Made by a program: the position numbers and the translations under genes. DNA of 42,017 nt. It comes from Ktedonobacteraceae bacterium. Lineage in GTDB: Bacteria > Chloroflexota > Ktedonobacteria > Ktedonobacterales > Ktedonobacteraceae. The stretch covers positions 1-42,017 of the forward strand of contig JAFAXQ010000173.1 of NCBI GenBank assembly GCA_019240835.1, read 5' to 3'. Shown here in pieces: positions 35,106 to 42,017 of the stretch (the first letter of the stretch is position 1; each line of letters begins with the position of its first letter). The notes below the pieces were generated by a model that saw only the letters and a program-made list of their open reading frames with translations, searched no databases and was not told the origin of the DNA.

Positions 35106-36413
35106 TCACCACAGGGGATTGATAACCAACCCCGTGATCAGTTTGGGATAGAAGTAGGTAGACTTTTGGGGCATGCGGTCGTCGGCTCGCGCTACGTCAC
35201 AAATTTGCTGTACGCGTGTTGCATTCAAAAGCAGGGCCAACTGCACCGTGCCCGCTTGCACGCCCTGCAGTGCCTCACGAGCATCGCGTGTGTAGTACAC
35301 GTGCGTCCCCGCCGTCAGATCCTGCTTCTGCAATCCCAGCAGCTCCTCCAGCACAAGCGTATGAGCCACAGCAACATCGAGACGATTCCACGCTGCTGAA
35401 TGCTCACTCAGTTCCATCCTGCGCCGCCCCTGCTCATTCAGCAGCAAAAGCCACCTGTGCTCATTTGTGGCAAGCAAAAGCGTCAACTGCTCCCGTCCAG
35501 CCTGTGCTAATTGTGCGAGTACCTGCTCGTCCGTTGCCTCACTATCCAGCAGTTTGAGCGTGAAATATTGCCCCAGGCGCTGCTCTGACAGCTCACTCAG
35601 CGCTTGCTCACTCAAGCCGAAGAGCATACGATGTGTAGGCAGTACGAGCAAACCAGGATCATCCACATCGGTGAGTGCCATCAACACGAAGTTAACGGCG
35701 TCTGCTGGCGAGAGTTCGTGACGTTGCTCATGCACGGAATCGCGGTAGGCCAGCGCCGTCTCATAGCGGTGATGTCCATCAGCAATATAGAGTTGGCGCT
35801 GCGCGAAAAAATCCTCAATCAACGCTATCTGCTGTGCATCGGTAACGGGATGAAGGAGATGTTGCTCGCCTACCTCGTCAACAACACACACTTCAGCTTG
35901 CGTACTATATTGGTTCAGCAGGCGTCGCATACGCCCCTGGGGATCATCGTACAGACTCATAATCGGACTAAAATTGGCTGCACAGGCTTGCAGCAAGTGC
36001 AAACGATCATTTTTCGCCTTTGCCAGCGTGTGCTCATGAGGCAGGACAACACGTGTACTCCACGGCTCCAAGCGCACGCGTGCCAGCAGACTAGTGCGCG
36101 TGTACGTTTGATCGCCGTGAGTGAATACCTGCTGGTACAGGTAATAACAAGGAGCCGACTCCTGTCGCAAGACATTTTGCATACGCCACTCAGAGAACGT
36201 TGCTGCCGCACGTGTATAGACATTGTTCAAGACGTTGTCTGTCGCCTGTTCTTTGCCCAGCTCAAGTCGAATACTATTATAAGGGCTGCGGGCATAGTAG
36301 CGTTCCTGTGCTTCCTTGTCGATGACATCATAGGGTGGGGTAAGCACCTGTGCTAGATCACCGACGGTATCCTGCACATAGCGTATTCCTCGTAAGGGGC
36401 GAACCTCTGCCAT
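35106..36413 (-). CDS. DUF1015 family protein
   Basis: A 435-residue soluble protein with the diagnostic DUF1015 motifs: MAEVRPLRGIRY at the start, LTPPYDVIDKEAQERYYARS, the highly conserved IADGHHRYETALAYRD, and VNFVLMALTDVDDPGLLVLPTHR. The molecular function of this widespread family is not established; the invariant GHHRYE suggests an active or metal site. The ATG at 36413 has AGAGGAG 9-10 nt upstream and suits the family N-terminus; the frame to 36491 is rejected. It is divergent from the pseudokinase gene. Confidence 0.9.
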   Translation of the reverse strand: MAEVRPLRGIRYVQDTVGDLAQVLTPPYDVIDKEAQERYYARSPYNSIRLELGKEQATDNVLNNVYTRAAATFSEWRMQNVLRQESAPCYYLYQQVFTHGDQTYTRTSLLARVRLEPWSTRVVLPHEHTLAKAKNDRLHLLQACAANFSPIMSLYDDPQGRMRRLLNQYSTQAEVCVVDEVGEQHLLHPVTDAQQIALIEDFFAQRQLYIADGHHRYETALAYRDSVHEQRHELSPADAVNFVLMALTDVDDPGLLVLPTHRMLFGLSEQALSELSEQRLGQYFTLKLLDSEATDEQVLAQLAQAGREQLTLLLATNEHRWLLLLNEQGRRRMELSEHSAAWNRLDVAVAHTLVLEELLGLQKQDLTAGTHVYYTRDAREALQGVQAGTVQLALLLNATRVQQICDVARADDRMPQKSTYFYPKLITGLVINPLW

Positions 36414-36445
36414 GACTAATAACTCCTCTTTCCAGTTTTTTCTTA

Positions 36446-36454
36446 ATTGTATCA
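36446..36454 (-). promoter_or_regulatory. Extended -10 promoter of the DUF1015 gene
   Basis: Minus strand TGATACAAT (TGn plus TACAAT, 5 of 6). The -35 region has at best 3 of 6. The start near 36440 gives a leader of about 27 nt. Confidence 0.45.
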
Positions 36455-36513
36455 TCTTCGCGGGAATTTGAAACCCTTTCCATATCCACAAGTCCTACTT
36501 CTTGTATACCAAT

Positions 36514-36578: not shown

Positions 36579-38444
36579 ATGCAGACACTAGCAGTAGATC
36601 AACTCGTCGGCAATAGACTAGGATACTATCATGTAGAGCGTTTACTGGGTCAAGGGCGTCTGAATGCCGTGTATCTCGCGCACCATCCCGACTACAATAG
36701 TTCGGTCGCCTTAACGACGTTTCTCATCCCTACACAGCTTTCGCCTGAAGCCCACACCCGCTTCTTGCAGCGTTTTTCAGCAGAAGCCGCCGTGCTGACT
36801 TCCCTGGATCACCCTCACATCATGCCTGTCTATGACTACGGGGAGCAGTTCGGTTATCCCTACTTAGTGACGCCCTACATGATGCACGGCTCGCTAGCTG
36901 ACGTTTTGAAGCAGCGGGAGCGTTGTTCTATCTCATACACCTTAGAACTGTTGGAGGAAGTGGCAGCAGGATTAGAGTATACTCACAGCCAAGGTGTTGT
37001 TCATGGCATGCTCAAGCCCTCAAATATTATCTTCGACAGTGAGAACAAGGCACTCGTGGCCGGTTTTGGGCTAATGCGTATACTACAACTGCGTGGTGTT
37101 GAGCGCAATGAACAGCCCTATGCACACCTGTTGAATGTCGCAGGCACATTCCTAGCAGCGCCAGAGTACATCGCGCCTGAAGTCGTGCAGGGTCAAGCGG
37201 TGAACGCATGCTCGGACATCTACAGCCTGGGCAGTATCCTCTTCGAGATGTTAAGCGGCAGGACGCTGTTTAGCGGTGACTCAGCGCTAGATATTGCGAT
37301 GCAACACACACAGCAACCACTTCCTTCGTTGCATAGCCTCGCTCCACACATTCCTATAGCTCTAGAATCAGTGGTGAACCATGCCCTCGCACGCGTACCA
37401 GCACAGCGCTTTCAAAGCGCGGACGACTTGGTAGAAGCATTCGCGCAGGTATGCAGCGGCGTTGCACAATCAGCTATGGAACCTATTGTGCCCGAGAGCG
37501 CGAAACCGTCGGCCTTAACCCACACAGGGGAAATGCAAGACACCCTGCAAGACGGTAGTACCTCTGCACAGGCGAGTGGTAAACTTAGGTTCACTGGCAC
37601 ATCTTCGTTGCTGGCAAAGCGCCATGCCAGTCCCACGACAGGCCCATGGCAGATTGTGCCACCCATTGTCACTGGAAGTTTACCTACCGTTCAGCTTTCC
37701 GAGGTTACCAATACTGCCCGTGAGACTCGTTCACCTGAACCATACATCGCAGCACAAAAGGCTCCCACGGAGGTGATGCACCCTATAGCGGCACAGCCCA
37801 GCGCAATGCTTCCAGAAAGCTCTGTTGCCTCTGCCCAGGCAACGAACCGGGTTGAAGCTTCGCAGAAGGCTGCCGATGCCCCTACCGAGGAAGTGAGTAC
37901 CCATGAAAACCCTGCTTTATCAGCCTTCACACAACCATCTAACGCTAGACGCAGACATGTCATTGCCCTGCTGCTCGCCTCGGGAGGCTTTGTAGCGGCG
38001 AGCGCCTTTCTGGTGACGAAGACAAATTTTTTCCATATAATGAATGCTGGTAAGACACAGGCCAACACGTCAGCGAAGAAGAGAGCTATGCCAGCTCCAA
38101 CCAACAAGACAACGTCAAATTCCTCGGCAACCCGTGCAGGAACCATTATCGGTTCCACCACAGTGGCTGTCAACTCTTCAGCAGCTTTTCACAATCCAGT
38201 TGACGGCAAAGCCAGCCTCCTTATCCATCTTCCAGACCACAACTTTGTTGCTTACGAGAGAGCTTGCACTCACGAGGGTGTCACTGTCAATTACGACCCA
38301 GCCACCCATATGCTCGTTTGCCCAGCCCACGGGGCCATCTTCAATCCTGCTGATGGAGCCAAAGTGGTGCAAGGTCCAGCTCAAAGGCCCTTAGTCCAGG
38401 TCACTGTGCATATTAATGCCGATGGAACCATCACCACTACTTGA
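36579..38444 (+). CDS. Transmembrane pseudokinase fused to a Rieske [2Fe-2S] domain
   Basis: Residues 15-285 have the Hanks-type kinase fold: glycine loop LLGQGRLNAVYLA, LKPSN, APEYIAPE, SDIYSLGSILFEMLSG. The three catalytic residues are absent: the beta-3 Lys is Thr46 (VALTTF), HRD is His142-Gly-Met144, and DFG is Gly162-Phe-Gly. A long low-complexity linker leads to one membrane helix (about 460-482, VIALLLASGGFVAASAFLVT) and a Ser/Thr spacer. The C-terminal ~85 residues are a Rieske domain with Cys563-x-His565 and Cys581-x2-His584 (CTHEG...CPAHG), probably outside the membrane. The disulfide cysteines of bc1-type Rieske proteins are missing, so it is more ferredoxin- or oxidase-like. It may sense or pass redox state across the membrane; this is inference. 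A clear promoter lies at 36514-36542. Confidence 0.9.
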   Translation: MQTLAVDQLVGNRLGYYHVERLLGQGRLNAVYLAHHPDYNSSVALTTFLIPTQLSPEAHTRFLQRFSAEAAVLTSLDHPHIMPVYDYGEQFGYPYLVTPYMMHGSLADVLKQRERCSISYTLELLEEVAAGLEYTHSQGVVHGMLKPSNIIFDSENKALVAGFGLMRILQLRGVERNEQPYAHLLNVAGTFLAAPEYIAPEVVQGQAVNACSDIYSLGSILFEMLSGRTLFSGDSALDIAMQHTQQPLPSLHSLAPHIPIALESVVNHALARVPAQRFQSADDLVEAFAQVCSGVAQSAMEPIVPESAKPSALTHTGEMQDTLQDGSTSAQASGKLRFTGTSSLLAKRHASPTTGPWQIVPPIVTGSLPTVQLSEVTNTARETRSPEPYIAAQKAPTEVMHPIAAQPSAMLPESSVASAQATNRVEASQKAADAPTEEVSTHENPALSAFTQPSNARRRHVIALLLASGGFVAASAFLVTKTNFFHIMNAGKTQANTSAKKRAMPAPTNKTTSNSSATRAGTIIGSTTVAVNSSAAFHNPVDGKASLLIHLPDHNFVAYERACTHEGVTVNYDPATHMLVCPAHGAIFNPADGAKVVQGPAQRPLVQVTVHINADGTITTT

Positions 38445-38701: not shown

Positions 38702-39022
38702 ATGATTAATGAGCCAGCTAGAGAGCAGAGGCGTTTCAAGCTGTTGTACAGAGCTACACGTATCAAATGGAAAAGATTCACCTGGAGTGGCCTCATTCTC
38801 ATTTTGGTAGGTATTGCAGTTATCAACCTCGGACTTGCGCTGGCAACCGGGGCCAATTCGACAGAAGGTCTGTTGGTTGGATTGGGAGCAATTATGGTAC
38901 TGATAGGTATTCTTAGAGTCCTGATCGGCGTTATTAATCCGGCAACGCCCAAAGACCTCGACTCCTCTGAACCACCTCCAGAAGAGACAAACACTACTGA
39001 AGAAATGGTTTTGGGAGAATGA
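38702..39022 (+). CDS. Small two-helix membrane protein
   Basis: A 106-residue protein with a basic N-terminus, two membrane helices (about 28-49 and 56-78) and an acidic, Pro/Glu/Thr-rich tail. AAAGGAG is 7 nt before the ATG. It is 15 bp after the AARTV gene and overlaps the aminopeptidase start by 4 nt, so it is translationally coupled to it. No family recognised. Confidence 0.7.
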   Translation: MINEPAREQRRFKLLYRATRIKWKRFTWSGLILILVGIAVINLGLALATGANSTEGLLVGLGAIMVLIGILRVLIGVINPATPKDLDSSEPPPEETNTTEEMVLGE

Positions 39023-40032
39023 TTCAGAACCTCACATTTGAAGAACGGCTGCAACTTGGAGCGGAGAATGCTATCCGCTGTATGGGTGTAGGCGAGAATG
39101 ATCGTGTTTTCATTATTACCGATTATTCTCGCCAGAGCATTGCACGCCTGGTAGCTGCAGCCGCTCTAGATCAGTATGCTGATGTGACAGTGCGCTTCCT
39201 TGAGCACTACGGTACACGTCCTATTACCTCTTTTCCCGAGACACTGCGCCAAGACCTGCTTCAAATGCGCCCAACGGTGACTTACTACATCGCTACTGCT
39301 CAACCTGGAGAGATCGCGTTCCGCATCCCGTTGCTGCCCTTCCTGGTAACTGAACTCAAAGTACGTCATGGCCATATGATCGGTATTGAAGAGTCACTGA
39401 TGGCCGAGAGCATGTGCGCCGACTACGACGAAGTTTTCAATTTGACAAATCAAGTCTACAACGTTGTGCGCAATGCACGAACTATTCATGTCACTTCAAC
39501 GAAAGGCAGCGATGTGACGGCAACATTCCATGAAGACTGGAAATGGGTGCCATGTCATGGGCGCTACCACGAGCAGGGTACGTGGGGCAACCTCCCCGAA
39601 GGCGAAGTCTTTACTGCGCCGGCTTCTGTCGATGGCGTAATTGTCTGTGATGTGTTGGGAGATTACTTCTCAGAAAAATATGGTGTGCTCGCACAACCAC
39701 TTGTCATAAGTATGAAGAATGGTTCTATTACCAACGTGACGAGCGAAAATACACAGCTTGCGCAAGAGGTGCGCGAGTATCTCTTCTCTGTGCCCAATGG
39801 GAACCGTGTTGGCGAATTTGCCATCGGTACACTTACCAGCCTGAAAAAATTAGTTGGGAACCTCTTGCAGGACGAGAAGATGCCTGGTTTGCACATCGCT
39901 TTTGGCAATCCCTATCCACAGTTCACTGGCGCAGACTGGCAGGCCAAAATTCACGTCGATGTCATTCCAAGCTGCTGCACTATTGAGGTTGATGGCAGGC
40001 TTATTATGCGCGATGGCAAGTTTATCATTTAG
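39019..40032 (+). CDS. M29-like (aminopeptidase T family) metallopeptidase
   Basis: The 337-residue sequence shows the C-terminal M29 signatures: GNLPEGEVFTAP, VGEFAIGT, LLQDEKMPGLHIAFGNPY and the metal-site HVDVI followed by VDGRLIMRDGKF. It would cleave N-terminal residues from peptides using two metal ions. The Asn normally following GE.AIGTN is replaced (GTLTSLKKL), and the protein is shorter than typical M29 enzymes of about 370-410 residues, so activity is uncertain. The start codon overlaps the preceding stop (ATGA). With peptide importers elsewhere in the window it could serve peptide use, but no direct link is visible. Confidence 0.82.
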   Translation: MIQNLTFEERLQLGAENAIRCMGVGENDRVFIITDYSRQSIARLVAAAALDQYADVTVRFLEHYGTRPITSFPETLRQDLLQMRPTVTYYIATAQPGEIAFRIPLLPFLVTELKVRHGHMIGIEESLMAESMCADYDEVFNLTNQVYNVVRNARTIHVTSTKGSDVTATFHEDWKWVPCHGRYHEQGTWGNLPEGEVFTAPASVDGVIVCDVLGDYFSEKYGVLAQPLVISMKNGSITNVTSENTQLAQEVREYLFSVPNGNRVGEFAIGTLTSLKKLVGNLLQDEKMPGLHIAFGNPYPQFTGADWQAKIHVDVIPSCCTIEVDGRLIMRDGKFII

Positions 40033-40171
40033 CTACAATCATTTTTCTGCGACGCTTTACAGATGAACGCTTGTGCTCATCTGCAAAAGTATCTTGAATG
40101 CTAGCAGGGGGCGAAGTATCCCTGTTGAATTGTCCTACTTACTCTCATGGGAAGCTGAAGGGGACTTCGGT

Positions 40172-40410
40172 ATGACTGCGATCAGAGGACAATTTCTCAT
40201 TGGCAGGGAATTGGGAGGCTGTGTGCTGGAACAACTAATAGGCTCTGGTAGCTCCAGTGCCGTTTTCCTCGTACAACAAAGCCATCCCAAGCGCAAGGTA
40301 GCCGTTAAAGTCTTCCTCCCTCACGCTGACCTAGACGCACAGATGCGGCGCAACTTCTACAAGCGTTTTTTGCTTGAAGCCGAGGCAGTCAGCCAGTTGC
40401 ATCATCCACA
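40172..40410 (+). pseudogene. N-terminal fragment of a serine/threonine protein kinase, cut by an IS element
   Basis: From ATG 40172 (AAGGGG upstream) about 79 residues of a kinase N-lobe are readable: glycine loop LIGSGSSSAVFLVQQ, the catalytic Lys in VAVKVFLP, and helix C FLLEAEAVSQLHHP. Kinases continue here with HI or NI, but the sequence changes after CATCATCCACA into TGCCAAAAAGCATAG, giving a stop. The change coincides with the right end of the TnpB element. Unlike the 36579 protein, this kinase retains its Lys and was probably active before insertion. The missing part may lie beyond the window. Confidence 0.75.
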
Positions 40411-40430
40411 GTGCCAAAAAGCATAGCGTA

Positions 40431-41685
40431 TTATTGCACACGCTTGGTTTTTGTTTCTTTTGTACGGGGAACGACAAGCCGTACTGGATGCACTGCCAAA
40501 TCCTCTACCCCCTCCGTCCCGAAGGCATCAGGGGCTACTTTTCTGATCGTGTTGCCCGCACCGTTAATATCGGCGTTGATCTCTCGTCCATCGGATGCAC
40601 GATACAACCCACGCTTGACCCGTTTCCCACTGAACGTGTGCTTCGTCTCATCACCGCTTTGGCGTACGGGTAAGGGGTCTAGGTCCAGTAAGGACGCCTT
40701 ACTCGTGTAGCTCTCCTCGGTGACCTTCACCCTGATCCCTACCAGTTCCGCTTTGTACGTCAGCATGGCTACCAAGCGCGCATGCGGAATTTGCACAAAC
40801 TGCTGATTGTTGCGCTTGCCCATGTTGGCTTCCTGCTTCCACCCGTCATTCTTGCCAATCACGAGGGTACCTATCCCCTCTTTCACCAACAGGTCAACAA
40901 CCCGCTTACTGGCCGTATGCATATAGTGCTCAATACGACGGTTCCGCGTGTTCGTCATACGCTCCATGCGCTTGGTCGTGCCTGTATGCCCTAGCTGCTT
41001 CTGTAACTCCGCACGCCGCTTATTATAAAATTGGTTGATGCTTTTGACTGGACGCCCGTTAATACTCACCGATGGGAACTTCGGCTTATTTGATGTTAGC
41101 GCTACCAGATTATTCACCCCCATATCTATGCCAGCGTAGTACTCAGAGTTCACTTCTGCCTGCTTGACCTCTTTTTCGTAGACGACCTCAAAAACATAAA
41201 AGCCTTTGCGTGGCGCAATACGCGCCTGTCTCACCGCTGTCTGCTTTGTGGGTATCTCAACCCCTAAACCAGACGGCGCTATCATCCCACGCTTCAAGGC
41301 CCTTTTCGAGATGGTCCCTTGTTCATAGACCAGCAGGTTACGCCCGTCGCTTTTGTGTTTGTATGTTGGGAAGCTGTGGTCGACCGGTGAACTTCTCAGG
41401 ACACACACGCCATGCCTCCATCGCCTCAAAGAACGCCACCCACGCTTTGTGCAACTGGATTAAGACTTGGTTGCTTACTTTAGCTGGAAGTGCCTTGTAG
41501 GCTTCATGACTCTTGATGAGATGGTAGACTTTGACGTTATCCAGGTAGACCTGCTCGTGAATAAACGATTGCCGTACCAGATAGTTGGCCGCATTGTACA
41601 AATTCTTCGACTTGAACGCCGCTTGGTCAATCACCTCATAGCGCGGGTCCCCCTTGCTGATGATCGTCTGTTCCACTAGCTGCAT
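40431..41685 (-). pseudogene. tnpB: Frameshifted TnpB (IS605 OrfB family) RNA-guided nuclease
   Basis: Two frames together encode TnpB. The N-terminal part starts at ATG 41685 (MQLVEQTIISKG, GGGAGGGAAA upstream) and ends at a stop soon after TGRPQLPNIQTQ. The rest continues in another frame as TYKHKSDGRNLL to the stop at 40431. One extra base in the CCC run at 41368-41370 (GGG on the plus strand) explains the break; removing it restores GRPQLPTYKHK. RuvC motifs seen are the Asp of GIDMGVNN and the final Asp of INADINGAGNTIRK. The usual RuvC-II Glu is replaced (TLVIGKNDGWKQ), a possible substitute being EESYTSKAS, and the CxxC zinc knuckle is absent. It may be inactive; sequencing error or programmed frameshifting are alternatives. 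Confidence 0.85.
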
Positions 41686-41714
41686 AGTTGTTTCCCTCCC
41701 TTCAGGTAGAAGCT

Positions 41715-41842
41715 TGCAGGTTGCAGATGTGCAGTCTGGCCTGCAGGTTGCAGGTCCATGCTTGCAGTTTTGCAGTCGCACTCTCTGCCGAGTGCAGTTT
41801 TGCAGGTGCATCTTGCAGTCCTGCGCTCTCATGCTAGTGCAG
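41715..41842. repeat. TGCAG iteron-like cluster upstream of tnpB
   Basis: Eleven copies of TGCAG occur in 128 bp, starting at 41715, 41722, 41730, 41742, 41749, 41763, 41771, 41793, 41801, 41814 and 41838. Several come in pairs 7-8 bp apart (TTGCAGGTTGCAG, TTGCAGTTTTGCAG). The cluster lies between the HTH gene stop and the tnpB start, a position suited to regulation or to a transposon end; a slipped-strand tandem repeat is a simpler explanation. Confidence 0.7.
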
Positions 41843-42017
41843 TACTGCTGCATGCTCTTGCCCTTTCTGCCAGGCGACCGCATCGTAGACCTTGCGTTCA
41901 CTAATCCCAAGCCTTTGGGCAACCTCCGCACGCTTGAGTGTAGGGTGGGCGCTCATGAACGCGACCACCTCGGCATGGCTGACTTTCACTTTGCTACCCG
42001 CTTCGTGTTTGGCACGC
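41834..42017 (-). CDS. Partial gene for a helix-turn-helix protein
   Basis: An open minus-strand frame enters from the right edge and stops at TAG (41836-41834). The visible 60 codons give KVKVSHAEVVAFMSAHPTLK, then RAEVAQRLGISERKVYDAVA and WQKGQEHAAVLH. LKRAEVAQRLGISERKVYDAV is a clear helix-turn-helix. The start lies outside the window. It could be an accessory gene of the IS element, such as a regulator or recombinase part, or a host gene next to it. Confidence 0.5.
   Translation of the reverse strand, partial: RAKHEAGSKVKVSHAEVVAFMSAHPTLKRAEVAQRLGISERKVYDAVAWQKGQEHAAVLH

Follow-up and report, generated by a model that had tools for sequence, protein, structure and literature searches.

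A transmembrane protein in which a catalytically dead Ser/Thr kinase domain is joined to a Rieske domain is encoded in the window, a stretch of 42 017 nucleotides from a soil bacterium of the Ktedonobacteraceae. The architecture is not a chance product, since the kinase domains of 46 such fusions form one clade, all 36 aligned fusions lack the three catalytic residues, and selection on the dead kinase domain is purifying. We put at about even the chances that the pseudokinase is a cytoplasmic docking scaffold whose tail motif is bound by a partner, tethering signalling to an extracytoplasmic electron carrier for redox or iron chemistry. The features of the gene and its surroundings are listed in Table 1.

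Table 1. Features of the pseudokinase–Rieske gene and its neighbours (window coordinates).
Feature	Position	Strand	Basis
DUF1015 gene, divergent, conserved upstream neighbour	35106..36491	-	Pfam, synteny
Pseudokinase–tail–TM–Rieske protein, 621 aa	36579..38444	+	ORF call, translation, Pfam, AlphaFold model
Catalytically dead Ser/Thr kinase domain, residues 17-279	36627..37415	+	Pfam Pkinase E 8e-39; pLDDT > 90; PDB neighbours PknA, PknB, Stk1
Thr46 at beta-3 Lys position	36714..36716	+	Lys 0/36, Thr 28/36 homologues
Met144 at HRD Asp position	37008..37010	+	Asp 0/36 homologues
Gly162 at DFG Asp position	37062..37064	+	Asp 0/36, Gly 28/36 homologues
Cytoplasmic tail, disordered and fast-evolving, residues 301-456	37479..37946	+	pLDDT < 50 almost throughout; Ka/Ks 0.54
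Conserved tail motif WQIVPPIVTGSLP, residues 357-369, Thr365	37647..37685	+	29 sites in 29 genomes; reversed-pattern control 0
Twin-arginine-like stretch RRRHVIALLLASGG and single membrane span	37947..38015	+	RR kept in fusions with full ligand set; TatC in genome
Extracytoplasmic Rieske [2Fe-2S] fold (predicted); Cys563, His565, Cys581, His584	38142..38438	+	Pfam, ligands, fold
M29-type aminopeptidase, conserved neighbour	39019..40032	+	Pfam PF02073; synteny
N-terminal fragment of active-type Ser/Thr kinase, interrupted	40073..40426	+	64% identity to residues 12-100 of intact orthologue
TnpB element in two frames, where the kinase breaks off	40431..41931	-	NCBIfam NF040570

The initial annotation had placed a pseudokinase and a Rieske domain in one transmembrane protein, and this was confirmed by Pfam matches to both domains, by one hydrophobic span and by the structure prediction proposed there. 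In the AlphaFold model, computed with 36 family members as input, the kinase and Rieske folds have a mean pLDDT above 90, and residues 313–518 are disordered. The ‘clear promoter’ described upstream of the gene comes down to one consensus match (TTGACA-17-TAGACT, 10/12) and nothing beyond it. Because this match stands among six in its region, compared with a mean of 2.0 in shuffled sequences, it is weak evidence.

The kinase domain scores 134 bits with Pfam Pkinase (PF00069, residues 17–279, E 8e-39), far above the cut-off of 31.7. Its model has the protein kinase fold, with Foldseek TM-scores to PDB kinases of about 0.8–0.9 (by target length); PknA, PknB and Stk1 are the nearest structures. 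The replacement of the beta-3 Lys, the HRD Asp and the DFG Asp by Thr46, Met144 and Gly162, as first read, was borne out by the sequence and the family alignment. None of these three residues, which mark active Ser/Thr kinases, is present in any of the 36 aligned Rieske fusions. The replacing residues are themselves conserved (T46 in 28/36, HG in 28/36, and GFG) and follow two patterns, T / HG[ATS] / GFG in the window type and R / HRN / EFG in a second subgroup. The APE Glu, Asp213 and Arg277 are invariant across the alignment, and the Asn of HRDxxxxN is retained in 30 of the 36 sequences. The description of the glycine loop as kept holds only in part: its third glycine is absent in the window protein (GQGRLN) and is not conserved across the aligned fusions.

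The order of pseudokinase, membrane span and Rieske domain proved to be conserved in the homologue search suggested initially, and the kinase losses are common to every Rieske fusion. Close homologues with intact K/HRD/DFG, which would speak against these losses being a shared trait, were not found in searches with the Rieske part of 29 family and 400 phylum genomes; nor did the 47 genomes of the order, searched in the same way together with the 400 of the phylum, contain any active kinase–Rieske fusion. The Ka/Ks ratio (NG86; one pair, the window gene and a close orthologue, 77% identical, from a Ktedonobacteraceae assembly) is 0.16 for the pseudokinase and 0.13 for the Rieske domain, compared with 0.54 for the linker. 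Thus the dead kinase domain is being kept.

The Rieske domain is recognized by Pfam (PF00355, residues 541–605, E 4e-8, 33.4 bits with a cut-off of 20.3). The fold and the Cys-X-His … Cys-X2-His ligand pattern are both found, and cluster binding is predicted. ‘Intact’, the term used in the initial annotation, applies to the four ligands; the disulfide Cys pair and the Ser of HGS are replaced, so that the cluster loops read CTHEGV / CPAHGA instead of the usual CTHxGC / CPCH. AioB (arsenite oxidase) and PetC3 are the nearest folds when the domain is modelled separately (Foldseek). It does not belong to the bc1/b6f-type high-potential Rieske proteins: both disulfide Cys residues are absent, and no cytochrome b/bc partner gene was found among the scanned neighbours.

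The single membrane helix described earlier corresponds to one hydrophobic span that starts near residue 461. The sequence features of a Tat substrate are present, with RRRHVIALLLASGG at residue 457, a weakly hydrophobic span and a cofactor domain behind it, and TatC is encoded in the same genome (E 7e-61). An RR before the span is common across the family. Four relatives from g8 genomes (L127, L128, L129 and L138) no longer possess the His ligands of the Rieske domain and have RK instead of RR together with a more hydrophobic span, but have kept the pseudokinase and, in three of the four, the tail motif. As these four form one clade, the His residues were lost a single time. That RR goes together with a complete set of ligands fits Tat export of a cofactor-loaded Rieske domain, a route shown for actinobacterial Rieske proteins (PMC5449189). 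Since the four relatives retain the pseudokinase without the His ligands, the redox centre is not the target of selection everywhere. The earlier statement that the redox centre was retained by selection and phosphotransfer given up is not supported as it stands: purifying selection acts to a similar degree on both domains, the His-less relatives exist, and the same clade includes pseudokinases without a Rieske domain.

The architecture occurs in 25 of 29 Ktedonobacteraceae genomes, in about 45 ORFs if genes cut by contig ends or frameshifts are counted. Searches with the Rieske part did not detect it in the 18 genomes from the other families of the order (47 order genomes), and yielded no further fusion among 400 Chloroflexota genomes; those Rieske matches outside the family that were read are DoxD–Rieske proteins. 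Restriction to the Ktedonobacteraceae is not proven by this, because phyla beyond Chloroflexota were covered by one pattern scan only. Two pseudokinase–Rieske genes (L102 4216-6309 in G009 and L104 4091-6309 in G007) are split by frameshifts in the linker or the kinase part, which may reflect sequencing error, decay or recoding.

In a tree with active neighbours and own-genome paralogues, the 46 fusion kinase domains form a single clade (UFBoot 100), whose sister group (93) consists of active kinases that have HCDVKPAN, Lys and DFG. Among the 29 own-genome kinase paralogues read, L016 and L030 are without the HRD Asp, and in one of the two the Lys and the DFG Asp are missing as well. With an enlarged kinase set the clade grows to 57 members, all of them pseudokinases. 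Some have no Rieske domain; of these, some carry another ectodomain, some are soluble and one is fused to a VIT1 domain. L304, L305 and L307 (G002, G004 and G003), pseudokinases of the pattern R/HGN/N[FL]G, have a different ectodomain of about 300 residues.

It is doubtful that the Rieske fusion arose only once. The Rieske domains of the two subgroups do not cluster together (FastTree, 0.82 and 0.97), and in the kinase tree the Rieske-less pseudokinases group with the second subgroup. Because the Rieske domains of that subgroup group with those of DoxD–Rieske proteins and not with the window type (moderate support), the trees suggest that dead kinases gained Rieske domains twice.

The linker of the window protein’s orthologues and several paralogues contains the motif WQ[ILF]xPP[IV][VI]T[GSN]x[LM]. 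A DNA pattern of its core has 29 sites in the 29 family genomes, and the reversed control has none. All but three of the sites lie in pseudokinase–Rieske tails, the remaining three being in VIT1-type proteins. Within the pattern the Thr never varies, and 26 of 30 copies have L, M, I or V at position +3. FHA domains often favour such residues at +3, and the motif resembles FHA-binding phospho-threonine sites. A conserved tail Thr with L/M at +3 is at most suggestive of phospho-docking of the MviN–FhaA kind. In Mycobacterium tuberculosis, the tail of the MviN (MurJ) pseudokinase recruits FhaA when phosphorylated by PknB (PMC12599244). The subgroup with R/HRN/EFG does not have the tail motif.

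The motif also occurs together with metal-transporter domains. One pseudokinase of the same clade (L300 1477-3276, G017) is joined through it to a VIT1-type metal-transporter domain, without a Rieske domain. Kinase-less VIT1-type proteins with the same motif are encoded in G012 (L331) and G001 (L330), the former next to a gene for an FTR1 iron permease. A candidate for an additional fusion, G001:C300, was rejected as it is a VIT1-containing protein without a kinase domain. A link of the family to iron can be drawn from this shared short motif and from domain names, and is tentative.

The orthologues share a gene order consisting of a HEAT-repeat gene, the divergent DUF1015 gene, the fusion, the M29 peptidase and an intact Ser/Thr kinase on the same strand. 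This downstream kinase is intact at 18 loci, usually about 3 kb from the fusion. In the window it is cut at about position 40415, beside the TnpB element. Because its remaining parts sit on another contig (G000:C123, L213), with further insertions and a second recombinase/TnpB pair, the kinase gene has probably become a pseudogene here. Peptidase and kinase are both missing at the fusion locus of the sister genome G011, and a full-length kinase of this type was not found elsewhere in that 83%-complete assembly. Conversely, G002 and G026 have full-length kinases of this type without the fusion. A compulsory partnership between fusion and downstream kinase was therefore rejected. The fusion stays constrained although the neighbouring kinase in the window is broken.

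The second subgroup has a different gene context. At all eight R/HRN/EFG loci the fusion is the first gene and directly precedes an FAD-oxidoreductase with an FHA domain. A 4Fe–4S protein with two cNMP-binding domains follows, then a ferric-reductase-like membrane protein, which was scored only where the contig reaches. In this operon (L140 1-5934 and equivalents) each redox subunit carries a signalling domain: the Rieske protein has the pseudokinase, the FAD-oxidoreductase has FHA and the 4Fe–4S protein has the cNMP-binding domains. The operon is present in 18 of 400 Chloroflexota genomes, all Ktedonobacteraceae and mostly without an adjacent fusion; it was not found in the genome of the window. 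In G003 and G004 a window-type pseudokinase lies divergent to it.

If the protein is a docking scaffold, the Rieske domain would fold around its [2Fe–2S] cluster in the cytoplasm and would be exported in folded form by Tat, so that the redox domain ends up outside the membrane and the pseudokinase stays in the cytoplasm. The pseudokinase would phosphorylate nothing and would act as a docking platform. A cytoplasmic partner would bind the tail motif, possibly after an active kinase has phosphorylated the invariant Thr, as with MviN and FhaA, and cytoplasmic signalling would thus be tethered to the electron carrier outside. The initial annotation had suggested a docking module, which fits the conservation of the dead kinase and of the motif in its tail. 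Counting against docking are the many redox-operon copies without an adjacent fusion, which form the majority, the lack of the operon in the genome of the window, the missing tail motif in the redox-operon subgroup and the doubtful dependence on the neighbouring kinase. A wider proposal can be offered tentatively: Ktedonobacteraceae may have evolved, probably twice independently, transmembrane dead Ser/Thr kinases with extracytoplasmic Rieske domains as phospho-regulated scaffolds for redox and iron chemistry, the tail motif marking VIT1-type metal transporters as well.

Alternatively, the protein could be a redox sensor proper. Oxidation or assembly of the cluster would alter the span and the pseudokinase, which would activate a kinase in trans by dimer contact, like allosteric pseudokinases. 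The active sister clade, usually encoded about 3 kb downstream, and the back-to-back dimerization of bacterial kinase domains of this type (MviN dimer, PMC12599244) agree with this. We consider it rather unlikely, as the partner kinase is lost or broken in genus g1 with the fusion retained, the pseudokinase persists in the four relatives lacking Rieske ligands, and the signal would have to cross a disordered tail of 200 residues plus spacer. Those four relatives, in which the whole protein is kept without the His ligands, also weaken the view that the Rieske domain carries electrons within an ordinary redox chain, with the pseudokinase as an assembly or localization tag only. One subgroup does head a redox operon, the closest Rieske folds are AioB and PetC3, and related DoxD–Rieske proteins are widespread in the phylum; the window gene, however, has no adjacent oxidoreductase, and we judge this view unlikely.

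Two further explanations concern the kinase domain itself. Unusual catalysis such as AMPylation (SelO) or glutamylation (SidJ) is known in other pseudokinases (PMC12599244), and the HRDxxxxN Asn kept in most fusions would also speak for it. It is very unlikely in a family where no member has the Lys, the HRD Asp or the DFG Asp and the third loop glycine is not conserved. Most improbable is a decaying, functionless paralogue. Lost catalytic residues, the broken active kinase gene next door and the two frameshifted relatives would be in keeping with decay, but the low Ka/Ks values of both domains already contradict it, the structural residues are invariant, and the clade is long-lived, persisting in 25 of 29 genomes.

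Conservation across nearly the whole family suggests an undescribed link between redox or iron chemistry outside the cell and signalling proteins inside. It provides a set of dead kinases whose active sister clade is known, together with a conserved peptide motif and a redox domain that can be read spectroscopically, and so makes the function of a bacterial pseudokinase directly testable. It also allows one to ask whether the extracellular redox state reaches phospho-signalling inside. No description of a pseudokinase–Rieske protein was found in the open-licence literature, and neither Rieske domains nor Chloroflexota come up in a 2025 review of the pseudokinase families of bacteria. The individual parts are known, but the literature covered holds no precedent for their combination, for its fixed catalytic loss or for the motif.

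Among known systems, MviN (ActPs3) is likewise a membrane-linked Ser/Thr pseudokinase that has lost the three motifs, and it too has VALT at the beta-3 position. Its tail recruits an FHA protein once phosphorylated, whereas an FHA partner of the window protein is only inferred. The window protein has no lipid-flippase or carbohydrate-binding part and carries a Rieske redox ectodomain; its activation loop is of full length from GFG (162) to APE (201), without the deletion of ActPs3. Judged, as for ActPs3, on the features stated in PMC12599244, it is also outside DLHK (HRD Asp kept, no transmembrane region), with Met144 and a span at 461, and outside ActPs2 (Lys to Arg, HRD Asp to Asn, DFG deletion, long activation-loop insertion), with Thr, Met and GFG at these positions. 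The second subgroup shares Arg and Asn with ActPs2 but has EFG and a kinase domain of normal length. The receptor kinases PknB and StkP have the same layout, an N-terminal cytoplasmic kinase fold, a single span and a C-terminal extracytoplasmic domain; in the window protein the catalytic residues are gone and Rieske replaces the PASTA repeats. Accordingly, the PASTA kinase model NF033483 reaches 217 of the required 450 bits, over the kinase part only, and Pfam detects no PASTA domain.

On the Rieske side, Tat-dependent Rieske proteins and actinobacterial QcrA (Sec/Tat dual-inserted) share the twin-arginine stretch, which directly adjoins a weakly hydrophobic span on the N-terminal side of the Rieske domain. 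In the window protein a large folded pseudokinase and a disordered tail come before it in place of membrane spans, and no cytochrome bc gene was found beside the gene. AioB and PetC3 are the nearest Rieske folds, yet only 20–29% identical; the window gene has no molybdopterin subunit among the scanned neighbours, and its subgroup lacks the disulfide cysteines. Closer in sequence, at about 40–50% identity, are the DoxD/DoxX–Rieske proteins of Chloroflexota, which have an RR-type span and a similar Rieske domain. They keep the disulfide cysteines and carry a DoxD membrane domain where the window protein has its pseudokinase.
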